Of a DNA stretch of 64,000 nt, positions 1-59,571 are shown one piece after another; the first letter of the stretch is position 1, and each line of letters starts with the position of its first letter. Source of the stretch: Clytia hemisphaerica (lineage: Eukaryota; Cnidaria; Hydrozoa; Leptothecata; Clytiidae). A program made the translations under genes and the position numbers. The stretch lies in NCBI GenBank assembly GCA_902728285.1, contig CACVBU010000053.1, positions 1,545,000-1,608,999 on the forward strand, written 5' to 3'. The notes beneath the pieces were generated by a model. The model saw only the letters and a list, made by a program, of their open reading frames with translations. It did no database searches and was not told where the DNA came from.

Positions 1-105
1 TCTTTTAATTGAAAACAAAGAAAAATTACACTGCAATGTTTTCTTTTTAAACACAAAAGAAAAAAAGGAGGTTTTCGAATGTTTATATTATGACGATTAC
101 CTCGG

Positions 106-258
106 AATCGTATGTTTTGTCGTGCAATTAACGATTAATCACTCGTAACAAAGGAGAAAATACCGTAATTTGCACTCGTCCTTCGGACTCGTGCAAATTA
201 CTATCTTCTCCTTTGTTACTCGTGATTAATCGTTAATTGCACTCCAAACCATACGATT
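106..258. repeat. 153-bp imperfect palindrome
   Basis: AATCGTATG..GCAATTAACGATTAATCAC pairs with its complement; centre near CACTCGTCCTTCGGACTCGTG (around 173-193). Confidence 0.75.
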
Positions 259-833
259 ACTAGTACTCATTGATTATTTTGAAACGAAGTGAAATCACAG
301 TATAATTGTTTTTATTGAGACGATAAGCATATTGAACTTATATTGCCTTTGTTATTTTTAAGTAATTAAAGAGCTTTGCTAAGCACAATTTGGCTATAAG
401 GTCATTATCGTAAAAATATCGTAAAATGTGTTATGATTGAAAAACTGTTTTATCATCACTACCCCCGTTTTTGTTAAAAAATTGGAGATTTGATATTTCA
501 CAGAAAAGTGCTAGCAAAGGGTATCTCGGGTCCCGTATCTTCCGAAGGACTTTTCCGTTTGTCTTGAAATTTCACAACCTTCTTAACTTAAGGTTGAAAT
601 ACCACTGGTGTATAAAAATGAACATTGTAGCATAAGTAGAAAAAAAGCTCAATTTTTGCAATCGCAAATTGAACCGCTAAAAATCGCGAATTTTTCAACC
701 AAAAATACATTCAAATATAGCGCTTTTGATTCTCTAAAACAAACAAGAAAAATTTTCGAAATTATATCGGACTATCAAAAGTTACAGGCCTTCTTGTTTT
801 CACTGCCAATTATATCTGGATACACTTTAGTTC

Positions 834-34446: not shown

Positions 34447-37400
34447 ATTAGTTATTTAGACGATATTAGATAGATTATTCATTTTCAATTCTAAACGTTC
34501 AAGGACTTAAACCACAAACAGTTCAATCAACAGTACCATATATCAAAGACAAGTTGATTGAGAATAACTTTTTATTTATGATTTTAACAGAAACTTGGCT
34601 CAAAGACCATAATGATGCTGAGTTACACATAGAAGGCTATGAAATATTTCGGTCCGACAGAAAAAGACCAAAGTCACGATTTGGAAGATGTAGTGGTGGT
34701 GTCGCTATATACATGAGAGAAGATATTTCATCACACTTCAAACAGACCGTTACACACTCAAATGGCGTTATCGAAGTCATCTGTCTGAGCTCGACTACAT
34801 TGGATATCCAAATATGGGGAATATACCGACAGCCAGACGACTCATCAAACGGGAATCCATCTAAGAATGAACAATTCAAACCAGTTACAGAGTTAATTAA
34901 ATCAGAACTAGACAAAACTGAAGGAAAAACACCAGACATCTTCATAGCAGGTGATTTTAACCTGCCACACGCAAATTGGGACAGCAAGTGCTCAAACCCT
35001 GGGGCATCTACAGAGGAACAAAGAATGACTAGTGAAATATTCACTCTTATGAATGACCATAATCTGATTCAACACATTAGAGGAGCCACACACAAAGCAG
35101 GAAATACACTGGATTTAATGCTCACAAATAACCCTCTACTAATACACAGCTATGAATCAGCCCCATCACCAGATTACATATCCCATCACTCAATGATCAA
35201 TGTTAAAATTCACTTTGATTTACACTCAAGTTTCCAAAAGGAGGATCCCTTTGTTGTGCGTAATGTATTTGATGAGTACAATTTTCATTCAAAAACAATA
35301 AACTGGGTATCAATCAAGGAAAAAATGAAGGATAAATTGTGGACAGACCTTCATGATCAACCGACAGCTGACCAATTGTCAACAATCACAGACTGGATCA
35401 TAGACATAATTAAGGAATATGTACCAAAACGAAAACCAAACACTAAAAAATTTCAGAAGATACCACGCGAGCGAAAGATTTTATTCAGAAAAAGAAAAAA
35501 CATTTTTAGAAAATTTCCAAACCCAATGAAAAATGCAAAATCCAAACAAAAATTAATAGACATTGAAACTAAACTAAAGCTATCCTACGAATCAGAGAAG
35601 AAAAGCCAGGAAAGGAAGGCAACAGAATCAATAAAAAACAATCCAAAATTTTTTTATGCATATGCAAAAAAGCATAGTAAATCAAAATCCAAAGTTGGAC
35701 CACTGCGTGACAAAAATAATTCTTTGATATATGATGCTGACCGTATTGCTAATATACTCCAAGACCAATACACATCGGTTTTCAGTGTACCATCGGAAAA
35801 TGACGTCACTCATCCAACAATATGTCCAAACGTGCTAAAAGACATAGACTTTGACGAAAAAGATTTCATTGAAGCAATCTCAACATTGTCACCAAACTCT
35901 GCTCCCGGTCCTGATGGATTTCCTGCGATTTTGCTGAAAAATTGCAAAGAAGAACTTGCTAAGCCACTCGCAATATTCTGGAGGAACTGTCTGAACCATG
36001 GAGTAACAGAGGAGATTCACAAAAGAAATCATATCACACCAATATCAAAGGGTGGAGATCAAGGAGAGCCATCTAACTACAGGCCAGTATCACTTACGTC
36101 CCATCTCACCAAGGTGTTTGAAAAAATAGTTCGAAAGAAGATAGTCGAATTTATCAACAACAATGACTTGTTCAACCCAACACAGCATGGTTTCCGGGAA
36201 GGGCGATCATGCCTTAGTCAATTACTCAGCCACTATGACAGTATCCTATCAAAACTAGAAGAAGGATTGGATGTAGATGTTGTATATCTCGATTTTTCAA
36301 AAGCATTTGATAAAGTCGACCACAGGATACTGCTATCAAAACTGAAATCTATTGGAATAACAGACAAACTACTTAAATGGATTAAGTCATTTCTTCAAGA
36401 CAGAAACCAAGTAGTATTTGTAGACGGTCACAAGTCGTACCAGGCAAAAATTCAATCAGGAGTACCTCAAGGATCGGTTCTTGGGCCATTATTCTTCATC
36501 ATCATGATATCAGACATTGATGAAGGGACAACCAAAGCAGAACTTGCAAGTTTTGCTGATGACACACGAGTAAAGAAAGGAATCCAAAACATCATTGACC
36601 AGTTTCACCTACAAAACGACCTTAACAATGTTTATCAATGGTCGACCATAAACAAAATGATGTTAAATGGAAAAAAGTTCGAGCATCTCCATTATGGAAA
36701 CGGACCAGCCACCAGTTATTTCACAGGTGAAGGAAAGATAATCCAAACCAAATCTTCAACAAGGGATCTTGGTGTTACCATGTCAGACGATGCGAAATTC
36801 AACCAACATATTCTAACCATTGTAGAAAAAGTACAGATACTCATTGGTTGGATTCTGAGAACATTCAGCTCAAGAGAACATGATGTCATGCTCACTCTTT
36901 GGAAGTCTTTAGTCATACCACACATCGACAACTGTTCTCAACTATGGTCACCCAATGAAGTTAATCTGATCCAGCAGATCGAAGATCTCCAAAAATCATT
37001 CACAAGGAGGATTAAAAACCTACACAACCAAAACTATTGGGAAAGACTACAAACATTAAAACTGTTTTCACTGCAGAGAAGGCGTGAAAGATATATTATC
37101 ATATACACTTGGTGTATTATTGAGAAGCTTGTCCCAAATCCTGGGACAATCACGTTCTATGCCAATCCCAGACAAGGAAGAAAATGTCACATACCACTAG
37201 TGAAAAGGGGGCCCTGGCAAAAAGTCATATACTCAAGTTTTAAAGTCCAAGGACCAAGGCTTTTCAACTCGCTGCCAAAACGTCTGAGGGATCTCACTGG
37301 GTGCAAGAAATTGAAATTCAAAGCTGAGCTGGATAAATATCTTTTTACAGTTCCCGACGAGCCACTCGTGACTGGCTACACTATGATGAGACGAGCTGAA

Positions 37401-37543
37401 ACAAACAGCATCATCAATATGAAAATTTACATCGGTCCTCACAGGATGGATGCGTAAAGATATTACGAAACAAGCTCAAGGTAACTCAAGGTAAGGTAGA
37501 CGACCGGTTATTTAGCAGATATAATATCGTCTAAATAGCTAAT
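34447..37543 (+). mobile_element. Non-LTR retrotransposon (CR1/L2/Jockey-like), nearly complete coding part
   Basis: A single long ORF for apurinic-type endonuclease plus reverse transcriptase lies between two 22-bp inverted segments (34447-34468 and 37522-37543, 21/22 complementary). After the stop codon comes a short tail of CAAGGTAA-like repeats (about 37473-37497), as in CR1/L2-type elements that lack poly(A). No upstream ORF1 is visible. No target-site duplication could be fixed. Assignment to the CR1/L2/Jockey group rests on motif style, not a tree. Confidence 0.75.
34470..37457 (+). CDS. Endonuclease-reverse transcriptase polyprotein of the non-LTR element
   Basis: The frame is open from just after a TAG at 34467-34469 to the stop before 37458. 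Numbering from the TTG at 34554 (967 codons): endonuclease motifs LTETWLKD at 11-18, AGDFN at about 132-136 and a SHHS core near 210, then RT motifs SAPGPDGFPA, NYRPVSLTS, YLDFSKAFDKVDH near 576, GVPQGSVLGP near 635 and the catalytic FADD near 667. A C-terminal thumb/tail follows, with the pattern LQKSFTRRI. No stop or frameshift interrupts the ORF. There is no ATG before codon 9 of this numbering (34578), although endonuclease homology (ILNVQGLKP, about 34488 onward) begins upstream, so translation may use a non-AUG start or the true start may be lost. Product: reverse transcription of its own RNA at a nicked target. Confidence 0.85.
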   Translation: MDYSFSILNVQGLKPQTVQSTVPYIKDKLIENNFLFMILTETWLKDHNDAELHIEGYEIFRSDRKRPKSRFGRCSGGVAIYMREDISSHFKQTVTHSNGVIEVICLSSTTLDIQIWGIYRQPDDSSNGNPSKNEQFKPVTELIKSELDKTEGKTPDIFIAGDFNLPHANWDSKCSNPGASTEEQRMTSEIFTLMNDHNLIQHIRGATHKAGNTLDLMLTNNPLLIHSYESAPSPDYISHHSMINVKIHFDLHSSFQKEDPFVVRNVFDEYNFHSKTINWVSIKEKMKDKLWTDLHDQPTADQLSTITDWIIDIIKEYVPKRKPNTKKFQKIPRERKILFRKRKNIFRKFPNPMKNAKSKQKLIDIETKLKLSYESEKKSQERKATESIKNNPKFFYAYAKKHSKSKSKVGPLRDKNNSLIYDADRIANILQDQYTSVFSVPSENDVTHPTICPNVLKDIDFDEKDFIEAISTLSPNSAPGPDGFPAILLKNCKEELAKPLAIFWRNCLNHGVTEEIHKRNHITPISKGGDQGEPSNYRPVSLTSHLTKVFEKIVRKKIVEFINNNDLFNPTQHGFREGRSCLSQLLSHYDSILSKLEEGLDVDVVYLDFSKAFDKVDHRILLSKLKSIGITDKLLKWIKSFLQDRNQVVFVDGHKSYQAKIQSGVPQGSVLGPLFFIIMISDIDEGTTKAELASFADDTRVKKGIQNIIDQFHLQNDLNNVYQWSTINKMMLNGKKFEHLHYGNGPATSYFTGEGKIIQTKSSTRDLGVTMSDDAKFNQHILTIVEKVQILIGWILRTFSSREHDVMLTLWKSLVIPHIDNCSQLWSPNEVNLIQQIEDLQKSFTRRIKNLHNQNYWERLQTLKLFSLQRRRERYIIIYTWCIIEKLVPNPGTITFYANPRQGRKCHIPLVKRGPWQKVIYSSFKVQGPRLFNSLPKRLRDLTGCKKLKFKAELDKYLFTVPDEPLVTGYTMMRRAETNSIINMKIYIGPHRMDA

Positions 37544-41370: not shown

Positions 41371-41519
41371 CCAAAGGTGTATATTGATGAAAGAAATCAA
41401 TTTATTGGAAAAAATTGAGATTTTTTGCTGACGTAGCAGAAATTGCAAAAAATCCATTTTTTCTGAAAAATACTGACATCAATAAAAAATTTCTCATTTC
41501 ATCAATATACACCTTTGGT
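41371..41519. repeat. 149-bp inverted repeat overlapping the duplication
   Basis: CCAAAGGTGTATATTGATGA at the left pairs with TCATCAATATACACCTTTGG at the right. The right arm doubles as the start of duplication copy A. Confidence 0.75.
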
Positions 41520-41917
41520 AAAATTTGTTGAAGTCAAAAGTTGTATACTACTAGAAGTTGGTCAACTTTTTATTTCTGTGACATCATCAAAATCAAGAAA
41601 ATTGTCTGAAAATTGAGAGGCTTTTTGGAAATAATATTTTCAGGATAAACTTGCAACAAGGTGGAGCTGAAAATAGGATGTCCATCACACCTATACCATT
41701 ATCAAGTTTCATCAATATACACCTTTGGTGAAATTTATTGAAGTCAAAAGTTGTATACTACTAGAAGTTGGTGAACTTCTTATTTCTGTGACATCATCAA
41801 AATCAAGAAAATTGTCTGAAAATTGAGGCTTATTGGAAATAATATTTTCAGGATAAATTTGCAACAAGGTGGAGCTGAAAATAAGATGTCCATCACACCT
41901 ATACCATTATCAAGTTT
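41497..41917 (+). repeat. 210-bp tandem duplication that includes the start codon of the RCC1-repeat gene
   Basis: Copy A 41497-41706 and copy B 41707-41917 are over 95% identical by eye. Both contain a TATTTTCAG acceptor-like site, GCAACAAGGTGGAGCTGAAA and ATGTCCATCACACC. Only copy B leads into the long reading frame; in copy A the frame from ATG 41678 stops at TGA after 17 codons. Confidence 0.88.
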
Positions 41918-44900
41918 GAAGAGAGGGCAAACAAAATCTCAAGTTAATAGTTTTCAATACCATTTGTACGAATGTGCCCATTTGTTATCAGTAAAGAATG
42001 GAAGACCTGACTCAATAAAACATCTGCCAGGTAAAATCATGGTTGGATCTGATTTGATTCTTTTAAAAATTATATGAAGTAATAATTATTTTAATTATAT
42101 TTACATATCAGGTTTGCCTTGAAAAATCTTCTTTTTTTAACTTAACTTTATCAGCCTAAATAAACCAGAATGGACAAGGTTTTTTACACTGGGAAGAAGA
42201 AAGGTGAACATTGTTTTGTGTTCCCAAGAGAAGTGCTCCTATTCTATATTAAAGCAATAAAATAAGAAAGCGTAAAATTGTCATTTTCAATTACTTGCAA
42301 AAACTCTCAATATATCTGATTTGAAATGTGAAAACAAGCCACAACAAGAGTTTTTATATGTAATCAGGAGTTTGTAAGTAAGTATATAAGTGTATAAAAA
42401 ACTTTTGCGCAACAAAGGTTATACATCACATCTGGCACTCTGGTTAGGCTAAAAATATTATGCTGGGGTTCATTATCAATTTGGTGTATGTTTTTTAACT
42501 TGTTATTTTTTTCAATAAAGATTATTGCTTTTTAGCTGGCATAGATGTTTTGAAGAGCAGTTTCTATGAGGGAAGTGGACGCTCTCTTATTGCACTTGTT
42601 TGCTCTAATGGTACGTTTATCAAAACTCCTTATTCCCAAATTTATATTATGATAGCTTTTATTTTTAAGATAAAAGTACCTTTTCCATAGCACGACTCAA
42701 AATAATGATTCAGACGAAATGTACCATCAGAAGCAGTCAGAAGTGCTTTTGCTTGAAGTTTATGCTTTTTGGTAGACAATGTCCCATGACTGTCTGACTG
42801 TTGTTAAGTCCTGTAATCCTGTATACGTTTTACACTACAGTGTGCCTAGATCGTGTTCAAAAATAAAGGCCTGTTTTGTGACATTTTCAAATTGGCTGAC
42901 AATTTTGTTAATAAAATGAGTATTTTTGGTGGCTAACAGTTTATTTTTTCACCAAGCATAAGTAAACCGATTAACCTTTCCAATTGTTTTGGAGCGAAAT
43001 TAAGTGGCTCACTAGGTTACAAGATATTTCAAGATAAGCTATGAGTCGTTTATGTGGCTGACAACACTGGTGGCTTTTTGAAACCAACCAGTTTCAAAAT
43101 GTTGCTCCTTTATCTGTTTTGAGATAATATGATACCTCTAGTTACCGATTCAAGTGTCATTTTCAAACAAACCATTTCCTCCTTTGAGGTGGCTGACAAA
43201 ACACATATTTGGACATATTTGGACCTGGAGCCACACATTTTACTCATTTTACCATTTTTTTCATCAAAATATGTTCTTTGTGTAAATACCGATCATCATA
43301 TAAAATTTCAACGTTTTATTTGAAATATGTCCCAAGTTATTCAAGAAATACTATATTTTTATCAATTTTTGAGTTCCCTAAATGTCACACTATTTTTGAA
43401 CATGATCCCTAGTATTTGGCCTGTTATGTTTTTGCTCTTATCAAAACAATAAAATCAAATTGTGAATGTAATTTTATCATTTCATTTTGTAGGCCACCTT
43501 TTATTTTATCTCCGTGAAGGACAAGCCACAAAGCCTATTGTTAAACAGTTAAACTGGTTCCAGGTAATGAATAATTATACTGTAATTTCACTCTATGTAT
43601 GAACAATCCAAAAATTCCAGTGGAAAGGTATTTCATTTGAAGTGAGATGAGATCTCACAGTTGTTTTATTCTTTTTGTGAGGAAGATTATGGTCTATTTT
43701 GCCATACGGAATGGGAGGAAGGTCCAATCTGGTCCAATTGGTTCTTGAATGTGTTGTTTGAGTATAGCTCAAAATGCATTTTCCAACAAACTTTTAAAGT
43801 CAAAAGCTCTGTTTCTGGAAAATCTAGTTTCCAATTTTTTAACATTACCTGAAAATAGTGAAAATACTAAATATAAATTTTTATCGTTTCCTCACTTATG
43901 AGATCTTTTTATAATTGAAACTATGTTTTCCAGAATCCAGGAAAACAAATCACTTCATTATGTATCGATCCTATCAGGGGATCATGGATCGTTTGTGCAT
44001 GTGCAGACTCAAGTGTTTATCTTGTCCCTGCTCTAACCCAAATGAAAGTAAGTATCTCAGAAAAAAAACTGAACAAACAGACGTCAATACTTCTATATAT
44101 AAGTTTTATTAATAACACAGGCTTGATGATGTTCATCATTCTATACAAAGAAACATTCTCAGCATATACAGAATAATTGAAATTGAATTTAATCCAATGT
44201 ATAATTATAGTGGAAATGCTATTTTGGAAATTTTTTTTTGTGTTTCATTTTAATTCTTTCTAGGAGGTCAAGGTTTACTGCCTCAATAATGAAGATATAA
44301 TAATGTCTGAGTATAGAAATGATTGATTGGTTTCTTTTTTTTTCTAAGGATTAGAAAGCATTGTTGAAAATGACATCTTATTTATTTTCAGGATTCGATC
44401 AAAGACATCAGTTTATCTTTACCAGCATCAACCACAGATATCTCTCGTGTTCAATATGCAAAGCCTCTAAAAGGAAAAGGTTCGAAAAAAATATGATTGT
44501 ATTGCTTCTAATTGGTTCGGAATTGTAATTTCGAGGATCTTTAAAGTACAGCAATGGCTTAGGGAAAAACTTCAAATCATTTTCCTTCAAAAATACATCT
44601 TTCAAAATAATTTAAAAATACAGAAAAGCAAGAAAGGAAGTTTTTGTAAACCAAGTATTGTAGTATTGACTTACTTTTTAGGGAAACCAACCTGTGTGAT
44701 TTGGTGGCATACAATAGATGATCAAAATGTGGGGATAGTGGGAACAAAGGTAATTGGTATAGAAATTATTAAGTATAAGGACTTTCAGATCGTTTTTTAA
44801 GTTTGTCTTTGCTTCTTACATTAACTTTGCTCAATATACTCGCTTTCTACCCTTACCTTTGGGTTTGGCTCTACTAACATGGACATCAAAATGCAATCGA

Positions 44901-47900
44901 TCAATGCAATACCTTTAGAAATTTGGTGTCATTCAATCCATATAAACTCTAACCCTATCCCTTTTAGAATTGATATATTTCATCATAAACAACCTCTTAA
45001 GTTTTCTCAAATCCTTTATTTATTAAAGGCTGGAGAACTTGTTTTCCTTGATTTATCGCAAAGGATCGAGCTATGTCGAACTGTATTGAAAGAGAAAATC
45101 GTAGATTTGGAGCTACTGCAGGACATCCATGAGAGAACAACACACCTTTTTGTAAGATTCTGTTTTTGTTATCATCCCCTTTGCGAGTGGAGCTAAATTG
45201 AAACTCGATTCTATGTTTAAGATTATGAAACTTCCAGTAGCAGGGACACTGAATATTGATCTTATGCTGAATAAAAGTTTGACCCAAAAAATTTAACATA
45301 CTATCATTGTTCAAAATGGGATTTGTGTTCAAGGCAGAAATAAAATTAATTTTTGAACTCTGAGTTATCTATTTATATCATACTGCTAGATGAGTGTTAA
45401 AAAAATGTCTAATATCAGCAGCTGGGAAAGACAAAAGGATGGAAGGGACGGAACAATGTTAATATAAGAACTCCTTCAAGTTTGAGCTATTGAGCAGTGA
45501 AATATCCTTAAAGGTTCTCTCAGGGGGGAGAGAGTTAAGGAGATCAAAATCATAGATTTGGAGATTTTGCTGTTATTAAATTAGAATGTGTTACGCATTT
45601 AACAGAAATTTATCCTAATTAAGGTTCGAACAGACAAAAACTGGACATTACAGCTCCTTCTCGAACAACCTTCACAGACAACAAACTTTTCATCAAGTTT
45701 AACACAAGGCTATGATATGGGTTATGACATGTTAACAGAATGCAGTATGGAATCCATTTTAACAACGGAGAGAAAAGACAGTAAAGATGATCATATTCCC
45801 ATACAAAACCGTGTTGAGGTGAGACTATTTTTACAATTCACATTTTTGTATGTATTGTTCTCAAACAAAAGCTGAAAATTCTGAACATTTCCTTTTCTTT
45901 ACTTGTTCAGGAACGCTCCCTAACGTTCCTTTTGGTGTTCAGAAGCGTTTTTGAAAGTTTTAGAACGTTCAGGAACGATCTGAGAATGTTCCTTAATGTC
46001 AAGAGAAGAGGTCCTTGCTAATACACATGCCAGGAATGTTCAGGAGTGCTCTCAAAACGTTTTAGAGGTCCCAGAACGTCCTATTTCATTTCGTATTTAA
46101 AATAGCTTGCTATATCCCAAATGTCCAAAGATGCTAATCAAAAATAGTGTGACATTGTAAAAAATGCTCAAAATCAACTTTTTGGAATAAGTCTTCATAT
46201 TTTTTGAATCAGCCATAGAGATTTCACAGGGTAATAGACGTCAACGTGGAGATATGATTAAAAAAAAAATTTGTTATTTGAGTCAAAATTGTGGCTGCAG
46301 TTCAAAAATTCTAGTTTTTTTTTAAGTGTAAGCCACACGATATTGAAAAGTGATCTCTGAATGGGACCCTCTAGACTTGAAAGAAAAAAGGCTGAATTTT
46401 CCAAAAAGTGTTAAATGTACATACTTTTGCGTTGTTAAATGTACTTTTTTGTGACTTTTTTGTCAGCCACATATTTTACTCACACTTCATGCTTTAATAT
46501 ATCTAAGTTGAGTAAAGTCACAAAATTTCGTTCTTTTTGCAACAGGTAGATAAATTATTCAGCTTAACCATGGATGTATTTTGACATGTAAGCCACATGA
46601 TGGCCTCATTCTATGAGCAAAATAGTGGATGACATATAAAATGTCACAAAACAGGGGTTAATTTTTGATTAGCATCCAAACGCAACGCGTTTATATAGTG
46701 ACAAAAAGCAAATGAAAAAAAAACTAATTCTAGACCAAAATTTCAAAAATAAGTTGAATTTATCACTTTTTTAACTCCTAAGCCATTGTTGAAATCATCC
46801 TTCCATTCTTTCCATCACATTTTCAGGTGTTACCACAAGACTTCCAATACAGTGCACAACCGGTCAAAGATAATATCTGGATCACTAAACTTGATTCTAA
46901 ATTCAGTGCTGTTGAAATCTTCAGTGATATCAAACGTGTTCCAGAATTTGTTTATCATGTTCCTTCGAGTACCAAAGAGATTGTTCTTTGCACTAATTTG
47001 ATGTTTGCTGTTTTTGAGAAAGAAGAAAAGGTATGGAGAGCTCTTTATTTCTTTACTCCTTTAGTAGCCAAGTTTTTGGTCTTGGGACTTACTGTGGTTT
47101 TATAGCTACAACCATGGCCGAAACTTATTACTGAAATATTTGTGTATTTTAAATGGATAATCAGATGATTCTTTTATATTTCGCTTAGAGATTTTATGAT
47201 CTAGAGAGACACCTAAATCTTTTGACCCAATTCTTTTTCAAAGCTGAGAAATTCGACTTTGAAATCTCTAAAAATGAGTCTTTACACAGTTTTTACGTTG
47301 AAATTCTATTGTTTTCAAGTAAAAATCTGAAAGTCGAATATCTCATCTTTAGAAAATAATTGGGTCAAAAACTTTGGAGGTCTTAGGACCATAAAAGGTA
47401 TCTCTAAGCCATATATAAAAAAATCATCCCTTAAACGTTTAATCGGAGTTTCGAGTTTTCCACTTTATTTCATTGAATAATTCAATCTCGGTGGGGTTCA
47501 GTGGCTTCTATGCTATCCACAGCCTTATTTGAATTATTTTGAGCTTTTGAATCCTGAGATCCTAAGGTCCTAAGTCTTAAGTCTCGTGTAAAAACTTGGA
47601 GTTAAAACTGTACTTTCCAGCTGTACTTTAACACGCTTAAAGATCATTTGTGGTGTTTAAAATTTTGCAGAGAAATCCCCTTTGTCTCAAATACTATGAA
47701 AGATTTAGATTACAGATTTAGATTACAGATCACACGTGTTTTTACGACCAGCAAAAAGAAACAATATTTTTTTGTTCTTTATTCTCGAACATGATTTGTT
47801 TTCGTAAAGTATAGATGAGGTACCATTACCAGTTGATGTTTTTCGTTTTTGGTTAAAAAATGTTTCTTAGTTGCTTGAAAGCTCAAATTTTTATTTCATT

Positions 47901-50900
47901 TGTAGTTGACGATGTCATTGTTATCCCGTCAATTATCAAGCACTTCCTTTGGTCGCCAAGGTTTGAAGGTAAGTCATATTTCCAAGCTGTACTTATTACA
48001 CTTATATAACTAATCTAGTATTTAATGCGGGAAAAGTGAGGGCAACAATTTATTAATGTTTAATATATACATGTAAAAATGTAGTTTGAAAGATATTCCA
48101 GAGCACTTTAACTAAGATCCTACCACCCTTCCTGAAAACGAAATTTGCCACAGTCAACACCCTTTCAAATTCGATTCGAAAAATTATCGAATCTCTGTGT
48201 AATCTGTAGTAAAATATTTGGCCCTTCAATGGAAAGTCGAAAAAGTTGTAATTCGAATCTTAGTCTATTTCGAACGTGCGATTCAAGACCCTGATTACAA
48301 TATTTAAAATTTTCTTTGTTTTCGGTCTAAAAGTGATTATTTTTCCTCAGAAACCTGACCCATCAATGAGAGCTGATTTACAGACATTCCAATTAGGAGA
48401 AAATCAAACACTGATCAACTGCTTCAAATCCAAATTTGCAAGCTCAGCCAGTTGGGAGAATTTATTCCCACACAATGTGGGCTATGATGACGTCAGCGAA
48501 TTGAATTCTTTCTTTGTGGTGACCAATAATGGAATCTTCGAATGCAGGCCAAGGTTTGTATCTTATGACTTGTTAATAATTTCTCATGGTCTTCAATTTA
48601 GATCCCCATCCTTACCATAGATATCTTATATAAAACACTAGATAGAGCTACTCTGTATTTCCCAAGCAACGGCAGGTGAAGCAAAATAATGCGCCATTTT
48701 GCTGAAAGTAGCTCACAGTTCAATACCGACAATTTGTTCAGCCAAGCAAAATAACCTGAATGGGGCGAATGAAGATAGGCTTGATCGATCAAATTGCCGG
48801 CACCGAACTTTGGTCTACCTATCAAAGATGGTGGATTATTTTGCTCCAGCTAGGGACAGAATCATCTACTGTTTTATCTGGTTTTATATAAGATATCTGT
48901 AATCCTTTTACCTCATCGTGAAAATCAGTATTGTTTTGACCCAATGTGTCTTGAGTGAGTAACATAGGGTACTGGCGTGTCGAAGGCTTCTATATAGCTT
49001 TTTCTTACCCTAAGGTAAAGGACAGGGTGCAACTCCTCTCCCTTGATTTCTCCACTCACCTATTAGCCTTCGCTTTATAGTTGCTGAGCTTCAAGTGGAA
49101 AGGCATAACGTTCCCTTTGTATCCCTTTGATATGACTCGACTAGATTGGAACTCACAAAATTGCACACCATTAGCCGAATGCTCTAATTTCTGTTAGGCT
49201 CGCTTGACTCATTTTTTTTCCTGATAACTTTACATTTTTTTCACTTCGTAGGATTTCTCCGGAGCATTATTTCTGCGAACTTGCAATCAAGAACGAAATC
49301 GATGTAGCTGAGAGGCTCGGTATCACTTTGGATCTTAACGTTCCTCTTTTGTGCGAGGTATCTATACTATGTGATTGTTTTTACCAGCAATAGCGTTGAC
49401 AAAGATAAAAAAGCAGACTTTATTTTGATAGAGCACTGAACTTAATGCCCAAAAAGATGGCGACACTTTTTTCATCAAGATCAATGGTTAAAGGACAACT
49501 CCAAAGGTTCTTACTGAATTTTATGCTGTCAGATTTTTCTCGGATAATTGTTTTTTCCTAGGTTTTGATATTCAGGATGACACGAGGGCTTGTTATATTT
49601 TTTAGTATATAGGTGACAAAGTAATCCAAGGCAAAGATATTCCAGCTGCTATGAAGTTTTACCACCTTTCTAAGGTACGTATATCACCATTCGTAACGAC
49701 GTTGTGTTGCGTGTGACTGCATGAAATGCCAACTCGAAATCTGTATCATTTTTTTGTATAAGAGCACACCTTAAAGGGATCTTACCAAAACTGTTACTAT
49801 TCTCATAAAGTTTTAATTTTAAAATGTTTTTAATCATACGGCTATTTAAAATGACGTATCTTGCGGTTATACTTGAGACTTTTATTCCAACTGTTTTGTA
49901 TCTTCAGTGTTCAGTGATCAAACGAGCAACAAATATAGTAGAATTTGGATCCGTCACCGATGCCCTCATTTACATCAAACAGGTAAAGAATACATATGGT
50001 ACACAATTAGCTCAGTTTTCACACTCATTGCTGGACTGAAACACCCTTAGAATATTGGTGGTAGTTTGAAACATTGTTCAAAAACACCAGGAATTTTAAT
50101 AACAGTGTCTTTCCAATCGGAGGTGGAAATTCTGCGCCTAATTAACTATCCCGATTATAATATAATCTTCTATTCTCCATGACGATCTAGAGATTTTTAA
50201 AGACTTCTCATTTTAGTGGAGAGTCTTTTTAACTCTAATCTCGACTTTAACTTTAGGTATTAAAGAAACAACAAACTTCGCTAGCGTCTAAAGAGAAAAA
50301 GTCATTAGCTGACATGGCAATTGCTTGTTATGTGGAGCAGGTATTCCAACTTTTTGTTTAGCCATGACAAAATTGAGAGATCGCCAAGTTTAACAGACTT
50401 TTACAGACATCCTGAAGTTTTCTTCTTATAAGTTACGCTCTGAAACATTGTTGTTTTTTCCTTTCAAGGTACTTGAATGTCAACAGGGAGGTTCTTTCTC
50501 GAAAAACCTTGCCGAGTCATTCAGGTAAATTAATTATCTAGTATCAAACATGCGTGTTTTTTTATCAAAATCAAATTTACCAGGTGATTTTAATTACAAG
50601 TGATTACATTGAGAGCCCATAAGGCTAAATAGGTTTTCTCAAACTTAAGTAATCCTTTTTCTGACCAGAATTGTAAACATAATCTGGAAGGGTCTAAAAT
50701 CTACAAATATTTGGCAACAAACTTCCTCTATAAAGGTCGTTTTCTTCTAACATGCCCCCTCATCTCGTAAACTTTGTAACTACCTCCCATTGACACCAAT
50801 AAGCTCCTGTGCATAAAGAGCTTAAAAAGTACTTTTTAACATTTTAAAATTATTTTCAGGTCATTTCTTTGCGACAATTTCGATTATGACGAGAAGAAAG

Positions 50901-53900
50901 CCATGCAATTGTTAGTCGAATACGGAATGATCAACAATCTCTTTGAAGTTGGAAAGGTACCCTATCTTATTCATTCAGTTTACAGATTGGCCTTTCCTGG
51001 AAACATGTAACAGTGCTGCCAAAAACGACCGGTGTCCGGTAAATATCGGCCATTTCGTAGTTTCATCCGGCCATTCTGAAGAGTAGAGCTCAAAGCATTC
51101 TCGTTACGCTCGAAAAATTACCGGCCAAATGAAATTTCCTTATTTGCAGCACTGTGGAATTTCCACTTCTCCATATCAGCAACCCCAATATTATTTAGAT
51201 TCACCTTTGCTGCACACTTTGTCCGTATGCGAAATCCCAAAACACTATATCTATTCTACCTTTGCTTAGATACAATTTAGATTGATCTTTCCTGGACACT
51301 TTAACTTTTAACGACCTTTCGTTAAGTACTTTTAGGTCAAATGTTTCTGTTCACCAAGCCATGGTAATTTTACTTCTCCGTATGTGAAATCCCAAAACAC
51401 TATATCTATTCTTCCTTTGCTTGATATTCTTTAGATTGACCTTTCCTGGACACTTTAGCTTTTTATTGATCTTTCGTTAAGTGTTAAATGTTTCTTTTCA
51501 CCAATCCATGGTAATTTTACTTCTCCGTGCGCGAAATCCCAACAAACTCTGTGTTAAAATTTCTTTCGTCCCAGACGGATTTCCGTCTCAGTGAAGTATA
51601 TAAGGAGGTTTCCCGTCTCAAATTTTGGCTAAATTCACCAAAATTTCAAGATAATGTGCTAATTTTTTGTGTAGAATCCATTTTCTGTCTCAGACGAAAA
51701 ACCTTATTTTGACCACTGCAAACTATCCATTCTGCTGCGAAGTTAAGGAAGGAAGGTTTATCCCTTAACGTCATGTTCTTTTGAGGCTTTCTTAAGGCCG
51801 GTCTCCACTTGCGCGCGCTTCGATCGCACTTTTTCGAGCAAATCTTCCACGCTATTGGTCAAAAATAAAATGAAGCAATTCATTGGCGCGATCTGACGTA
51901 ACGGTTGAAAAAAGTTGAAATGTGTTCAACTTTTATTTCGAGCGCGCGCTACATTTTTATGACGTAATCTTTTTTCGAGCAAAAAGTATCGAAGCCAAAA
52001 GGTGCAATCGCAGCGCGCGCAAGTGGAGACCGGCCTTTATTATACTTTTGAGTTTTTTTTTATTCTACTTCAGGCTCGTGGTAAAATCGAAGAAGCTCTT
52101 GCATTGATGGCATCTCGAGGATTCTTTCAACTTTCGACCAGTATTCAGAACAAGTTGTTAGACTGTGGCTATGCTGAGAAAGTGTGCAAAGCTTGTAACG
52201 GTAAGCAGTAAAACATCGTAAAATATCATCCAGCTAAGGTGTGCAAGGTTTTTGGTTTGTTCAACCCCCAGCCGGGTTATACCAAAGATCCCTAAATTGT
52301 ACTCGACGCCTCTCTGCGTGATGCTCAGCAACTAAAGAAAAGACCCCTAGTTCGGATTGTCTGTACACAGACCCAGTATCTACAGCTAATTTCAAAATTC
52401 ATTGCTGTAGTGGGTCTGTTGTCATTGTCTTTTCACATTTGAGATTTTTCAAACCGACCGCTATACTGTGATGGAGTGTTGGTGAGAGAGGGGAGGCGAT
52501 AAGAGAAGGGTTGCTTATCATACTTCATCGCAGAGTTCTCAGTACGGGAAATTTTTTATCAAACAGACTATGCGCACAGAGTGTATTACGAAGCGATAAA
52601 CGTGAGATACACTCTGGTACAGAGTATAGTTCGGGTAGATTATATAGGAAATTGGAGAGCCTTCGTGCTGTTGTTAACGGTCTGTCTCAAACTTATTAGA
52701 AGGGGACACAAAAAGTCCTTTTTAGAATTAGTCAGGGAAAAATTTCGTAATCTGTTAAAAAATATTCGTGACGCAAAATTTCGCTGGCTTTCCCTGGTCA
52801 TTTACCAACGATAAAATATTTCGATAACTGTATCTCAAAGAGGAGCGAATAGAAAGTAAAATTTTTCTTTGCTTGAAAATTTTGCGGGGTCATTTCCTTG
52901 TATAATGTTGGAGATTTTTTGTATTACTACTTCTTTAAAAATCTTCCTCTGTCGCAATCTGTTTTTTGAGCTTGTTTTTGCATTCGATTGACCCTTCAAA
53001 TTATTTCAGCTTATTTCAGCTTATTTTGTCTTTCTCAGGGTTGTTTGTTAAATTTATGGCGCCTGAAGACGCTGTCAAGTTTTTATTAGCTCAGGTAAGC
53101 TTAAAATGATACAAGCTCGTTTTTTAATGAGAGCTGCATAAATCGAAATTTTTCAAATTTGAGCTTGTATTCCTCATAAAAAGAATTCTTATAAAAAAAC
53201 TTTGTATTGATCAGTTTCAACTGCCAGATACTAATTTAAAACTAGCTAAATATCTGTACACCAATTTGTGACACTAATCATAGAATTAATATCATTTCTT
53301 CTTTCTGAACAATTTAAAGTTCAACTATTCTGCTAGCTCTGTATAACAGACAAGCATATTTGAATTCCTTTTTCGCTCACTCAGCCAGATGTTTCCAAAC
53401 CATTCATCAAGAAGTTAAAGGCTCTGTTACCCAAACTCAATGAGACCTCTTTGCTTTTGGTTGCAAGAGTGTTCGACCCATCGAGGCAATTCATCAAACC
53501 GTACTTGGAAAAATCAGACGCCTTTAAACGACAAAGGTAATAATTCTTACGCCACAAGGGGGGTGGGTTTTAGTTCTCAACTTCAGTCGAGCTAGAATCT
53601 GACAATGTCTGAATGTCCGTCCGAAAACTTCTGCCCCTGGAGACTTCAAAAATTGTTCGATTTTGCTGAAATTTTGCATACTTGTTCCTTGGGTGAATAT
53701 CTGGGGGTATACAATTGGGCCTATGACTAATTTGAAGCCACTGAAGTTGAGCCCAGTGCGTTGCGCACGTTCGACTATTTATCAGGGTCGAAGATAATTT
53801 CAGACCTATTGATTGTTGTTTTTAACTTTTAAAGTAGTCGAAAACAAAATCTCCATTTAGTGCTAGCAGTTTGTTAGCTCTTTCTAACAGGTCAAAAGTT

Positions 53901-56900
53901 CCACCGTCTCGGTAAAGTATATAAAGAGGCTTTTCCGTCTCAAAATTCAGCATGATTCACCAAAATCCCCATGTATTAATGTATACATGTAAGTACATGT
54001 ATTAATTTTCTCCTTAAAATCCATGATCGATCTCAGACGAAACACCTTGCTTTGACCGCTGTTTAATCATTTAGCATTTTTTACTCAGAACTGGTTCTCG
54101 ATCATCCTTGGTATCGATGCAATCATCTTCTGTGCAAACTGAGGTGAGAAAATCCCATAACATTAAATTTAGACTTCAACCTACTGTAATGTTTTGTTGG
54201 GATATTGCAAATCTAGCTTGTAATATAGACATCTTATCAATATCAATGGGCTTTTCCAGAAAAAAAGATTTACCCCCACTGTTGAGGATATTGATTTTTC
54301 GAACTATCGAACTCCCTGGATATCCTACTTTATTAGTAAAGACCCCCTCCTCTGGATATCCTCTCTTATAAAGATGCTTACCCCTGGATATCGTATTTTT
54401 TACTTGAAAAGACACTTTACCCACTGGATATCCGCTCCCTTGTAGATGTTTTAACCCCCTGGATATCCACTTTTGAACAGAAATCGTTAATCCCCTGGAT
54501 ATCGGATATCCTCAACAGGAGGGGCAAGGACTATTTCTGGAAAAGCCCAATATATTGTGAGCACTGAACAATATATTATCCGTACTTACAGGGGGGGGGG
54601 TCAACATCCAGATACCAGACCCATAGCCGGGTGGTGGTGTCTTTTTTTCCTTTAAAAGTCTGAAAAGTCAAGTTGGTATTGATGGGGGTGGGTCTTCCTT
54701 TTTTTAGAAAAAAGAGTTATCCTCAGTTGGTATTGATACCAAAATAGGGGGTGGGTACCCCTTTTTTAAATAATATGATTCAGAAAGTTGGTATCCATAT
54801 CAAAATGACAGCAAAACTTTCCTAATTTTTGCCCTTATAGCTAGAAAATACCCCGGGGTACATATCAGTCTAAACATGTTTCAATTGGATTTGTTTTAGC
54901 TTTTGAGTATAATGACTGTAAATGAGTAATAAGTTTAAATGACTTTGAAGTTTGTTTATTTTGGACTTTTTCGATATTTTCAAGTTTTATTTTTGATCAA
55001 GCCTGAAGCAAAAGCATTTTTTCTGTGATAGCATTTGGTAATGAGTGAATCTATTCTGTTCTAAAATTATGTACTAATGATAGCTTCTCCTAGTTTTTGC
55101 ACATCAATTATATTCAGATAATATTGATTCAGATTGATTTTGCTAGCTTCATTGGGTTTGTTTTTATTATATTGTCAGTTTTTAGTCATTTTCTATTTTA
55201 GCATATATATATGACATTTTTTGTGTTGTGTTGAAGAAAGAGTATTTCAAAAATTAGTTTTTTTGAAGTTTCTCTTAGTACCCTGTTTGTGTGGGAGGGG
55301 GTGGGTTCCCTTTAAACAGCTTTAAACTCAAATTTGTCAGATTGGTATTGGTACTAAATTAGGGGGTGGGTCCCATGATATTTTGTCAAATTCAAAAAGT
55401 CATGTTGGTATCGATACCAAATTAAGGGGGTGGGTCCCCCTTTTTTCTGAAAATTATGATTTTCAAGTTGGTATCGATACCAAGACAAGGGGGTGGGTCC
55501 CCCCTTTTTCTGAAAATTATGATTTTCAAGTTGGTATCGATACCAATTTTGGGGTGGTGGTGTTAACTTAGCTCAAAAGGTCAAAAGTTAGGTTTTTGGG
55601 CTATGGGTTGGTATTATAAATGTTGACCCCCCCCCCCCCTGGTACTTACCGATAAATTGTCTGACAATTATTTTGTGTACTATGTAGCCATAGAGTGCGT
55701 GCCTTAGTTGAATTATGTGTGAAAGTTACACAATGTCATTCAACATTGCCAGAAGACCGCTATAAACGCGTCACGACGTTTGTTATCAACAAACTACCCC
55801 ACCTGTTAGACGATTGCCCCATCGAGGTGTCCTTTCCCATAGAGTTTGCTGTAGTTCTAGGTATTTAAGATCTACTGATTGATATTTCACTATCGCAGGA
55901 GGATCCTTACACGGCAACAGCCAGTGATATCATTGCCATGTTTCTAACGACAATGATCTATTTGAACTCTCGAAGAACCTGGAAGAAGTTCCCGGATATG
56001 TGAGTATATTTGATATTCGAGCAGTACCTCTTGGATACATCATTCAGCCTGATTGTATCTTCCTTTTGAGTTCACTCTTTAATATCCTGGCAAATTATAC
56101 CTGATTTTTATTTATATTGACCCTAGCTCATAAGAGGCTAAAGGGCAACTAAAACTACACAATATATTGGTGAGCAATATTCGACAATATAGTTTTCAGA
56201 CCGTAATGTACGGAGTAAACAACAGGTGCTCTTTTATAAAAAGGAATAAACAATCCCCCTATATTGTTGGAATATTGCAAATTAAGCTGACAATATATTG
56301 CAGCAAGGACACTTGTATAGCGAAGCTACGCTATACAAGTGTCCTTGATTGCAGACACCTTTTCAATATATTGCCGGCATTCAGCAATATATTCTCAATT
56401 TTTGGCTCGACAATATTGTTTAGTGTATGAAACCCTTAAAAGTTAATTACTCATCAACTCCCAAGTTGGGAATTCGATTTTGCCATCATTATTAGATATG
56501 AAGAATGTATTTGAACAAGTATAATTTGAACTTTCCCTACCTGTAAAGTTGATGAGTAATTAATTCAAATTACTTCAAGTTATTTAGATTTATAAGAAAT
56601 AAAAAAATTGGTTCAAGAATAAATATTCCCTCTTTTAAGTCTAGAATTCACGAGTGAATTCATAGCTGGCCAAACGAGTTAACTTAAACGGTGAATTATG
56701 TTCAAATACTGTTTGTTTTATGACGCTTTTGTGGACGATAATTAGACCTTTTCATAGATTTTTGGTAATTGCGATTTCCAGTGGAGTTCATAAGAAGTTT
56801 GCTCTATCTAGTTTACTCGAGTGTATTACAAGTTGTAATACACTCGAAACAATCCCACAATGCATCGCTTTTTTAGAAAAATCGAAAACTCCGATGAGGG

Positions 56901-59571
56901 CTATAACCAGTAGTCTATAATAAAAAAGCGGAATGTAGGTTCATAGGAAGCAAAAATCAGAATCTTTATATTGTTTAACAGGCGCGTGATTTCCAAATCA
57001 TTGTCTGGTCAGTTCAGTTGGACTGGCTCCTTTGGTCGAAGAGTGAGTACACCTTAACCTTTCGTTTTCGAGTTATTCTGGAAATCTAAATGGCGTGATG
57101 ATTGAATTGGACACAAAAAATCTTGATCTTCCTTGGAACATTTAGCATCAAAATGAAATTCTCTTCACTTGCAAACAACAAATAATTTTTCTATCTCCCA
57201 AAAGAAATTTGTTTTTCCTTCAAAAATACACAAGGATTTACCCTCTTTCACGAAAATACCTGAAAGTATAACTTTACATTAATTTTCCTTCAAAAATACA
57301 TTAAAGGCATAGAATATTCCCTAACAACGCACAGTCTCTTCTTGACTTCTTTAATATCTTTTAAAGTCGGAGAGCCTTGGCAGCAATGAGATTGTCTTTT
57401 CGGAGATCGCACAAAAGAAAATCGACTGTGGAAGATATCATAGCGCTTTTGTTACTGCCGAAAAAGAACTGTACACATGGGGTCACGCAAGCTTCGGAAG
57501 GTATGATAAAAAACATTCTCTCTTCTCAGGTTATCTTTGCATTTGTAACAAGTCTGAGACCTTAGTCGAATGCGACCCAAAGGCTGCTTTTTCAGTAGGT
57601 ATCTAAACAGAATAGCAGGGGAGGGCGTATCAGGGGAGGGCGCCACTGTCTTCACTGGATTCTGAATTGCTGTGAATTAAGTAGAGAGGCATCTAGGAAC
57701 ATTTCTTTTACCAAGTACGAACTCTTTGATATGACTTGGCCGGGGATTGAACCCGCACTCTTGCGCACCGTAGCCGAACGCTCTTCAATTGCAATAGGTT
57801 ATATGATATTACTTTGCATGGATACTTAGAGAAATTTGAACAGTAGCTAAAGGAAATTAGTTCTAGTTTTCAGGTTTTCAGGCTTACTTAATTAAGATCT
57901 TTTGGGAATATCTATTTTATTTCTTCCATTCTGAAACCTTTTTAAATGCAGGAAAACTCTACTTAGCATGTTAATTAATATTTAAAGGTGTTAAAAAAAT
58001 CGCAAACTACAAAGGCTTGAGTTGAGATCTAGTTTGGTTCAAAATTTGGAAAGACGAAATAGTTCACATAGTGTGAGCCCCCCTTTTTTTTAAGGGGGGG
58101 GGGGTCCAACTTTTCAAAAAGTGCTTTATAGGGGGATAGGAGATTTTAGGTAGGGATCAAGTAAATATATAGGGGATAACAACTTTTGGTCAAAATATCT
58201 ATCATATTTTATAATGATTTAGATATTTGGTGTGGGACATCTAAAACACAAGTGTAGCTAAATTTTCGCCTGCGGCGCCATGCTAAACCCTTTTTTATTA
58301 ATAATTTTTAATGCAAATTTCAATGTTTTGGGTTTTGTATGACTGGTGGACTACTGCTGAAAATAGCGTGGGCTCGAAATTTTTCTAAAATAGGGGGGAT
58401 ACACGCATAAAGGGGGGGGGGGGATGAAATAAAAATGAGGGAGGGTTCAGACCCCTCTGCACACTATGGTTCATTTGTGGGATAAACATTCTTTGGTTAA
58501 CGATATTCACTCTCTCATTCTTTATCAGATTGGGACATGGCGATTTAATGGATGAAAATGCAACAAGTCAACCGATGCGCGTTGAAAGTCTTCATATGCA
58601 CGGGTAAGGAGATTACAATTCATTGCAAAATGATACCATTTCTACCATAGCAATTTCATACCTTCATTTGTCAAATATTTTTGTAATTTGAACGTAATGA
58701 TGCTTTAACAAAGACTTTTCGTGATTTCGAATCTTTAGCTCATTGGAAGGCAACTATTTTGTCAAATTGACCGAATTAGAAATTGTAAACTTTTTATCAT
58801 GTAAGAATGTAAAACGCAGAGTAACGCGACGATTTTGCCACAATGTTTTTCCGCTAAATGTTTTCGTTGTCTTTTGATCTTTTTGACTGATCGTAATTTT
58901 TTGCATCTTTCCTTTTGCATGAATTTGGCTTATTTTGAATACAGCTGATGCTCTCTTTTATTCGACGTTCTACTATTCGATAGGCTCCCTTATTCGATGA
59001 AATTTAAAGTTCTCGTTCAACAAGAAACTCTCATAAACGACGCTTATTCGATGAAAATCCAACTCCCCTTGAAGATCGAATTAGAGAGCGTATTTTCACT
59101 TTTTCAGGATCCAAGTGATGTCAGTCTCATGTGGAGCAATGCATACCGTAGCCCTCTGCCAAGAAGGGGTAAGGATCACCTATATATAATTTCGAATTTT
59201 CAAAGATTTCAAAGCTCCTATCACCAGAAGATAGACCATTAACGCTATTAGCCCCAGGGGGAGGGCAGAATCTACCACGCTGGAGTTCTTTTGTTTATAT
59301 CTCGGAGAAAACCTTTTTAACGACTAGAGAAACTTTCTGACTTTTAATAAAATCTTATTAAGAGTACTTGTGCAAAACTTTAGGGCTGGTCGTCCAGGAC
59401 CTTTTTTAAGTCATTGTTTGAATCAGATTCTATGTTAATATGAAAGTATAGATACCCTTTATAATAAGGCATTAAAGCATTTCGTTTGAGCTGAAGGAAG
59501 CCAGATGTATTTTATTTTGTCCGTTTCTTTTTTTCTAGGTATTTGCGTGGGGTCACAATCGTTATGGACAG
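41886..59571 (+). CDS. Large beta-propeller / helical-solenoid / RCC1-repeat protein, 28 exons, 3' end not found
   Basis: Exons: 41886-42030, 42536-42610, 43493-43563, 43934-44047, 44392-44479, 44682-44749, 45029-45151, 45624-45818, 46827-47030, 47906-47968, 48351-48553, 49252-49357, 49606-49674, 49908-49982, 50257-50340, 50469-50524, 50860-50956, 52074-52200, 53039-53094, 53385-53536, 54089-54143, 55688-55826, 55899-55999, 56982-57042, 57367-57500, 58529-58603, 59108-59168, 59539-59571. Phases agree at every junction except 54143/55688, where 2 nt are missing; a small exon there was probably overlooked. About 943 codons. Residues 1-360 look like propeller strands (GHLLFYLREGQ, SLCIDPIRGSWIVCACADSS, GIVGTKAGELVFLDLS). 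Residues about 450-790 are helical, with ARGKIEEALALMASRGFFQL typical of clathrin/VPS-type repeats. From about residue 860 come RCC1 repeats: IDCGRYHSAFVTAEKELYTW, GHASFGRLGHGDL, SVSCGAMHTVALCQEG, VFAWGHNRYGQ. Start: ATG 41886 is the first ATG in the open frame. Function unknown; trafficking or small-GTPase exchange is only an inference from the domains. The last placed exon ends inside an RCC1 repeat, so the gene continues. Confidence 0.85.
42849..43407 (+). mobile_element. Diverged member of the 4-bp-TSD family, TSD CCTA (copy 3)
   Basis: Ends GATCGTGTTCAAAAATA and TATTTTTGAACATGATC, flanked by CCTA (42845-42848, 43408-43411). It shares CCTGTTTTGTGACATTTT, GTCACACTATTTTTGA and repeated GTGGCTGACA blocks with copies 1 and 2, but the rest has diverged. 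Confidence 0.82.
46130..46676 (-). mobile_element. Same 4-bp-TSD family, TSD CAAA (copy 2)
   Basis: Inverse complement of 31441-31989 with few changes; CAAA flanks at 46126-46129 and 46677-46680. Lies in an intron of the RCC1-repeat gene. Confidence 0.85.
48619..48899. mobile_element. About 280-bp MITE with AGATATCTTATATAAAAC ends
   Basis: AGATATCTTATATAAAAC at the left and GTTTTATATAAGATATCT at the right; further short inverted pairs around TTTTGC inside. In an intron after the exon ending at 48553. Confidence 0.65.
49010..49200 (-). mobile_element. Older copy of the same tRNA-derived SINE
   Basis: Read on minus: GAGCATTCGGCTAATGGTGT, a decayed B box GAGTTCCAATCTAG, then GAGTCATATCAAAG. 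Confidence 0.5.
51222..51530 (+). repeat. About 155-bp tandem repeat, two copies
   Basis: Each copy contains GAAATCCCAAAACACTATAT, TTTCCTGGACACTTTA, CTTTCGTTAAGT and CCATGGTAATTTTACTTCTC. Confidence 0.8.
51545..51725 (+). repeat. Dispersed repeat related to 53885-54062
   Basis: Both contain CCGTCTC..GAAGTATATAAGGAGG-like sequence, a CACCAAAAT block and CTCAGACGAAA..CCTT. Confidence 0.6.
51795..52036. mobile_element. 242-bp MITE, TSD TTA (PIF/Harbinger-like)
   Basis: Ends AGGCCGGTCTCCACTTGCGC and GCGCAAGTGGAGACCGGCCT, flanked by TTA. It ends 37 bp before the exon at 52074. A second copy lies at about 14328-14527 and a partial one at about 11810-11892, both in WASHC4 introns. Confidence 0.65.
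52349..52625 (+). repeat. Dispersed repeat, copy 2
   Basis: Counterpart of the repeat at 13.1 kb; carries TATTACGAAGCGATAAACGT and ATACACTCTGG(T/A)ACAGAGTA-type ends. In an intron of the RCC1-repeat gene. Confidence 0.75.
53885..54062 (+). repeat. Second copy of the 51.5-kb dispersed repeat
   Basis: Contains CCGTCTCGGTAAAGTATATA, GATTCACCAAAATC and TCTCAGACGAAACACCTTGC. Confidence 0.6.
54247..54551. mobile_element. Element with TGGGCTTTTCCAGAAA ends and TGGATATC array
   Basis: Inverted ends TGGGCTTTTCCAGAAA and TTTCTGGAAAAGCCCA. The interior has six or seven CCCCTGGATATC-type repeats spaced about 36-43 bp. Confidence 0.65.
54589..55641. mobile_element. 1.05-kb poly-G-ended element, 7-8-bp TSD (hAT-like)
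   Basis: Ends CAGGGGGGGGGGGTCAACAT and ATGTTGACCCC..CTG. GTACTTA is repeated directly outside (54582-54588, 55642-55648). The interior has several degenerate repeats of GTTGGTATCGATACCAA next to GGGGGTGGGT. In an intron just before the exon at 55688. Confidence 0.72.
56304..56347. repeat. 44-bp perfect hairpin
   Basis: CAAGGACACTTGTATAGCG is followed after 6 bp by its exact inverse complement. It is the core of a larger AT-rich segment with repeated CAATATATTG. Confidence 0.85.
56443..56566. repeat. Small inverted-repeat element
   Basis: TTAATTACTCATCAACT at the left pairs with AGTTGATGAGTAATTAA at the right. Confidence 0.65.
56805..56905 (+). repeat. Short copy of the 1.8-kb palindromic family
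   Basis: Contains GTGTATTACAAGTTGTAATACAC (hairpin), then CAATCCCACAATGCATCGC and TTTTTTAGAAAAATCG. Confidence 0.65.
57655..57795 (-). mobile_element. tRNA-derived SINE
   Basis: Read on minus: GAGCGTTCGGCTACGGTGCG, then the B-box-like GCGGGTTCAATCCCCGGCC, then AAGTCATATCAAAG. The acceptor stem is not restored, so it is not a functional tRNA gene. Confidence 0.6.
58067..58468. mobile_element. 402-bp element, TSD GTTCA
   Basis: Outer ends CATAGTGTG and CACACTATG; GTTCA is repeated at 58062-58066 and 58469-58473. G-runs lie just inside both ends. Confidence 0.72.

Follow-up and report, generated by a model that had tools for sequence, protein, structure and literature searches.

The DNA analysed here, referred to below as the window, is a stretch of 64,000 nucleotides from the hydrozoan Clytia hemisphaerica (GenBank assembly GCA_902728285.1, contig CACVBU010000053.1, positions 1,545,000 to 1,608,999 of the forward strand). 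It contains a gene that we regard with high confidence, on its sequence identity and architecture, as the hydrozoan ortholog of Claret of insects and GLO-4 of worms, a family known in these animals for building pigment granules and similar organelles. The gene was modelled as 27 GT-AG exons between 41886 and 59571 on the + strand, which join into 2691 nt, a multiple of three, and encode a stop-free chain of 897 residues. In a single BLASTP alignment, residues 1-897 of this chain lie on residues 1-895 of a Hydractinia protein of 1620 aa (P0001) at 58.6% identity, a sequence match far beyond chance. With P0001 as the tblastn query, 26 of the 27 exons were matched, collinearly and all on the + strand, including weak single-exon matches at 49606 (E = 0.13), 56971 (E = 0.60) and 59539 (E = 0.70). 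Exon 21 (54089-54143, 19 residues) has no tblastn match of its own; within an alignment, 7 of 16 residues are identical. Between 59571 and 64000, tblastn with five relatives as queries revealed no convincing further exon, a result that a very short exon could escape. Since no convincing counterpart of P0001 residues 896-1620 appears before 64000, the gene most likely runs beyond the window, which, judged from the sequence, would hold its first half.

The window protein starts with a beta-propeller at its N-terminus, continues with an alpha-solenoid and ends in the first part of an RCC1-like propeller (the RCC1-like domain, RLD). Exon 1 (41886-42030) begins with ATG, ends at a GT donor and encodes the start of the N-terminal propeller (tblastn with P0001, E = 1.8e-10). 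The propeller continues through exons 2-6 (42536-42610, 43493-43563, 43934-44047, 44392-44479, 44682-44749) and 7-11 (45029-45151, 45624-45818, 46827-47030, 47906-47968, 48351-48553), as indicated by splice sites, tblastn and the propeller profile described below. The solenoid occupies exons 12-16 (49252-49357, 49606-49674, 49908-49982, 50257-50340, 50469-50524) and 17-21 (50860-50956, 52074-52200, 53039-53094, 53385-53536, 54089-54143), on the evidence of splice sites, the solenoid profile and, except for 54089-54143, tblastn; exon 18 (52074-52200) contains ARGKIEEALALMASRG. The end of the helical part and the linker to the RLD are encoded by exons 22-23 (55899-55999, 56982-57042; tblastn with P0001, E = 8.4e-5 at 55899-56000 and E = 0.60 at 56971-57042), and the first part of the RCC1-like propeller by exons 24-27 (57367-57500, 58529-58603, 59108-59168, 59539-59571; Pfam RCC1 and RCC1_2, RLD profile). 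All of these exons lie on the + strand. Directly upstream of the gene, two copies of about 210 bases that are 97% alike stand side by side (41497-41917); the second includes the start of exon 1, and the first repeats the ATG and the first codons (MSITPIPLSS) and then diverges.

A preliminary description of this DNA, made from its letters, had proposed a single gene joining a propeller, a solenoid and RCC1 repeats. The peptides that it quoted are present in the sequence, and its view of one gene is borne out by the 27 in-phase exons, the single BLASTP alignment and the occurrence of both halves in one chain in relatives. It had also named 54143 and 55688 as the two sides of a possible break between separate genes. 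An exon at 55688 did not hold up. About 1.75 kb with a tandem repeat separates exons 21 and 22, and the exon-like stretch at 55688-55826 (+, 139 nt), which lies in this intron within a 67-codon frame (55665-55868) with acceptor and donor sites, does not fit the phase of exon 21. It was rejected as an exon because it breaks the frame and has no counterpart in P0001. Furthermore, it has no match better than E = 1.0 among the 240 proteins retrieved in our searches, and Pfam yielded nothing for it at E up to 0.1; it is possible that 55665-55868 is a remnant of another gene or element. Splicing directly from 54143 to 55899 is in phase and agrees with P0001. The same interval is where two adjacent genes, one encoding the propeller and solenoid and one encoding the RCC1 part, might have been mis-joined. 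The long repeat-bearing gap, the lack of a separate tblastn match for exon 21 and the fact that our model was drawn from genomic sequence would all suit such an error, and the last of these weighs against our model generally. Against this explanation, P0001, P0003, P0007 and others are single chains in which the two halves follow each other in this order, and the phase fits across 54143-55899. We therefore consider mis-joining very improbable.

We built separate profiles from the regions corresponding to P0001 residues 1-480 (propeller), 450-795 (solenoid), 800-1190 (RLD), 1225-1620 (C-terminus) and 1530-1600 (tail). They were trained on the 14 members of alignment A1, which holds no arthropod and in which three members without an organism name group with hydrozoans in the tree presented below. 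The window protein matched the family profiles for the propeller (E = 5.4e-154, scored with a profile built from relatives only), the solenoid (E = 1.6e-131) and the RLD (E = 6.4e-43). In line with these matches, a Pfam search with the spliced protein, as the preliminary description had suggested, found RCC1 (E = 2.4e-16) and RCC1_2 (E = 2.2e-16). The three-part architecture that it had put forward stands. The RCC1 repeats are not C-terminal, as it had supposed: in P0001 they are internal, at about 809-1190 of 1620, and the window covers only the first part of them. In the orthologs, the chain runs from the propeller to the solenoid, then to the RLD and on to a helical region; most non-copepod members also have a tail with the pattern CxH...CPxC. 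A predicted structural model of the Holothuria ortholog (P0021) has a beta-rich N-terminal propeller, in which 32 of the first 47 ten-residue blocks have a mean predicted local distance difference test score (pLDDT) of at least 80, followed by helices at 471-781 that form the solenoid. For the first 742 residues of the window protein, Pfam yielded nothing beyond a DUF1048 match below the cut-off, and a PDB sequence search gave no match at E up to 1. An NCBIfam scan of two relatives and an Rfam scan of the window at gathering scores were likewise without matches.

The nearest relatives, P0001, P0002 and P0003, carry a C-terminal helical region and a tail, which in the Clytia gene would lie beyond the window. 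The tail follows the pattern F-[ST]-C-[GN]-H ... A-C-P-x-C-V, and all eight members chosen for having it keep C-x-H and C-P-x-C. Of the 240 retrieved proteins, 85 have the pattern within their last 160 residues, a number that may include control proteins. The Xenia model ends early and lacks it. The tail could bind one zinc ion. It has one CxH and one CPxC only. The Pfam Vps8 RING model matched it in 2 of 14 members, at best with E 0.0043 and 17.3 bits, below the cut-off of 27.3, and because these matches are weak we neither call the tail a RING nor take that assignment as settled. We also rejected 9ycf_G, the best PDB match of the tail profile (E 0.0094), which aligns to a histidine run and following residues at the start of the chain, that is, to an expression tag.

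A homolog search in 5.8 billion proteins gave 181 matches, of which the best 120 were listed, with full-length relatives of about 1600 residues. The top 21 of these 120 are family members, of which 14 bear the name 'uncharacterized protein', six bear no descriptive name and one bears the name 'HERC2'. The organisms named for these 21 are Hydractinia, Actinia, Montipora, Acropora, Xenia, Branchiostoma, Ptychodera, Glandiceps, Gigantopelta, Octopus, Tubulanus and Holothuria. A profile search (8 matches) added Hydra and the copepod Tigriopus, and the copepod protein, used in turn as a query, led to proteins of a sea louse, of many insects and of a land snail (232 matches, 120 of them listed, with scoring confined to the 7990 candidates sharing most words). 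The orthologue search that the preliminary description had called for thus recovered cnidarians, deuterostomes, molluscs, a nemertean, copepods and insects. Among the 120 matches listed for the copepod query, 14 insect proteins bear claret-kind source names, in the forms 'RCC1 and BTB domain containing protein claret', 'uncharacterized protein ca' and 'Glo-4_0' (P0163, P0175, P0183, P0185, P0187, P0188, P0190, P0192, P0194, P0196, P0205, P0208, P0211 and P0217). No BTB domain is listed for these proteins, despite the 'BTB' in the name. The 'HERC2' protein (P0021, the Holothuria model of 1016 residues) matches the non-RLD profiles and is a misnamed family member. Database names mislead elsewhere in the family too, with several insect members labelled RPGR-like or UVR8; others are called uncharacterized.

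As RCC1 repeats are common, likeness in that part proves little, and the argument rests on the other regions. At least one of the propeller, solenoid and C-terminus profiles was matched by 128 of the 240 retrieved proteins (the 14 training sequences included). All 14 claret-named proteins matched the propeller, solenoid, RLD, C-terminus and tail profiles, the weakest E values among them being 1.5e-17 for the propeller, 3.0e-34 for the solenoid, 4.4e-20 for the C-terminus and 5.9e-10 for the tail. By contrast, none of the 112 other RCC1-repeat proteins, which comprise plant PH-RCC1-FYVE proteins, HERC2-like proteins, bacterial RCC1 proteins and others, matched the propeller, solenoid or C-terminus profile at E up to 10. 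This difference indicates that what the window gene has in common with insect claret is the whole architecture and not the RLD alone, with the same regions in the same order. Identity is low, at 103/426 (24%) in the propeller and 65/290 (22%) in the solenoid between the window protein and Neodiprion ca, and many insect members are longer (1800-1930 aa as against about 1600). In a maximum-likelihood tree of 27 sequences, arthropods, molluscs plus the nemertean, and cnidarians each form clades, and the window protein falls within the hydrozoans; sets of 4, 5 and 6 sequences holding it have support of 99/98, 100/99 and 100/100, respectively. The Holothuria branch is long and its placement unsure, and 16 of the 24 inner branches are starred.

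The gene is thus not new but belongs to the named Claret/GLO-4 family. The preliminary description had known of no named gene with this order of domains; the insect claret/ca proteins share the N-terminal propeller, the solenoid and the C-terminal part, and the orthologues are therefore those of an already characterised family. It was right on a trafficking context and in its pointer to Claret/GLO-4. The names of the top 21 matches, 14 of them 'uncharacterized' and none of them claret, might have suggested a novel gene fusion confined to this lineage. That explanation is refuted by the presence of relatives in cnidarians, deuterostomes, lophotrochozoans and arthropods and by the claret, ca or Glo-4 names of at least 14 insect copies listed, and we give it the least credence of the alternatives considered here. 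Some observations do weigh against the identification as a Claret/GLO-4 ortholog. Drosophila Claret and C. elegans GLO-4 are not themselves among the sequences listed, so that the link runs through the database names of other insects and the literature; the deuterostome sequences do not form one clade in the tree; and the tail profile has no match in any copepod member retrieved.

Through this identification, a number of animal proteins so far called 'uncharacterized' are linked to Claret/GLO-4. The family predates the split between cnidarians and bilaterians, which makes this factor of the Rab32 pathway at least as old as their common ancestor. Neither vertebrates nor nematodes were seen among the organism-named family members in the matches listed (120 of 181, 8 of 8 and 120 of 232), in searches that were not exhaustive, and the gene has perhaps been lost in vertebrates. 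The vertebrate Rab32/38 pathway uses BLOC-3.

The claret-named members are more than an RCC1 domain, with a tether-like arm making up most of the chain. The preliminary description had seen in this combination a tether plus an exchange factor. Half of this is supported: the build is tether-like, and exchange is doubtful. The family RLD, which forms part of a chain some 1600 residues long, has the same propeller fold as RCC1, the Ran exchange factor. Its closest matches, by structure as well as by sequence, are UVR8, HERC2 and RPGR; in the control set, neither the plant RLD proteins nor those named HERC2 have a match to the non-RLD profiles. According to a passage of PMC2898669, mutation of RCC1 Asp182 inhibits exchange by weakening the contact of Arg147 with Ran. 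Asp182 directly precedes the conserved His in the third G-x-x-H-kind motif of RCC1. In 42 members chosen from the 128 family matches, its equivalent, P0001 residue 978, is A in 31, S in 5, C in 4, G in 1 and T in 1, and thus Asp in none; the register comes from a structural alignment of model residues 294..815 on RCC1 21..421, by blade counting between the reported ends and not from residue pairs. An alternative register from a sequence profile search puts the Asp182 position near 1098 by estimate, where D is likewise never found. At the second-motif position (875 of P0001), D occurs in 3 of 42. In the last motif, 38 of 42 members have D or E at the position of P0001 residue 1150, directly ahead of the place where histidine is usual and where 39 of 42 have F or Y. 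This acid, conserved and specific to the family, could be a contact for a partner or a GTPase.

Two alternatives have to be weighed here. We tentatively propose, at somewhat less than even confidence and by analogy with other trafficking proteins, that Claret/GLO-4 may serve the Rab32 pathway of lysosome-related organelles as a tether or scaffold made of one chain, with a catalytically dead RLD as its partner-binding hub, and not as an exchange factor. The N-terminal propeller and solenoid would form a long, HOPS/CORVET-like arm that tethers membranes or acts as a scaffold, like the arms of other trafficking proteins of this build, and the mid-chain RLD would be a binding platform for partners, perhaps a Rab or its regulators, in place of an RCC1-type catalytic domain. 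Judging from the literature on its relatives, the protein would act in the Rab32-family pathway, in the building of lysosome-related organelles and in autophagy. Alternatively, the same gene might encode a true Rab32-family guanine nucleotide exchange factor (GEF), in which the RLD catalyses exchange and the propeller and solenoid only target it to the membrane. This role is stated as fact in PMC3279429 and PMC4947924; in PMC4806438 and PMC5068940 Claret/GLO-4 is termed a putative GEF. The absence of Asp at the Asp182 equivalent speaks against it, as do worm data in PMC6268011, where GLO-1 remains on puncta in glo-4(-) animals and CCZ-1 with GLO-3 behaves as the GLO-1 GEF, a pattern that groups GLO-4 with the trafficking machinery and not with the exchange factor. 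We consider a true exchange factor unlikely, and exchange activity of Claret/GLO-4 appears doubtful from the residues present.

Several points also count against the tether or scaffold proposal. Besides the papers that treat the GEF role as established, the His304 position is His in 16 of 42 members, and position 1150 holds D in 20 members and E in 18, so that some catalytic chemistry is conceivable; the residue check covered Asp182, His304 and the analogous motif positions. We found no sequence similarity to VPS or HPS chains, and the tether analogy is one of fold class alone. Long Foldseek matches to IFT-A, nucleoporin and COPI chains are loose, with root-mean-square deviations of 18-29 and template modelling (TM) scores, by query, of 0.11-0.25.

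The HOPS/CORVET subunits VPS8, VPS41, VPS39, VPS11 and VPS18 likewise consist of a propeller followed by a solenoid and have a C-terminal cysteine/histidine motif, and several of them end in a RING. Unlike these subunits, the Claret/GLO-4 family has a second, RCC1-type propeller mid-chain. A PDB search with the full-length profile, taking matches up to E = 10, gave no VPS subunit, the solenoid not having been searched alone. HOPS/CORVET and BLOC-2 (HPS3/5/6) chains were not among the best 50 matches of each structure search, which excludes nothing, and for BLOC-2 the matches listed in the structure comparison and the PDB profile search show no sequence or fold relation. In the literature, we did not find the propeller and solenoid build described for Claret/GLO-4; subscription papers lay mostly outside the search, and we make no claim that it is unpublished. 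Among the papers listed, 'propeller' occurred together with Claret or GLO-4 only in a nuclear-pore review (PMC11289042), with one occurrence of GLO-4. The tether-like build makes the assumed Rab32 GEF role of Claret/GLO-4 worth testing, and simple tests could address it.

Elsewhere in the window, an open frame of 995 codons at 34470-37457 (+) encodes an endonuclease (PF14529, PF03372) and a reverse transcriptase (PF00078, E 1.2e-30), and is by its domains a long interspersed nuclear element (LINE)-type retroelement with an uninterrupted frame. Two arrays of 46-base units in opposite orientation, as judged by eye, lie at 21445-21743 and 23588-23984 around about 1.8 kb, and are possibly the ends of a mobile element. 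Between them, a reverse-strand frame of 234 codons (21808-22512) resembles by eye the end of a reverse transcriptase and has no Pfam match. Finally, tandem repeats occupy 6713-8020 (254-base unit, about five copies), 15625-15966 (31-base unit, 11 copies) and 28698-29541 (50-base unit, about 17 copies).

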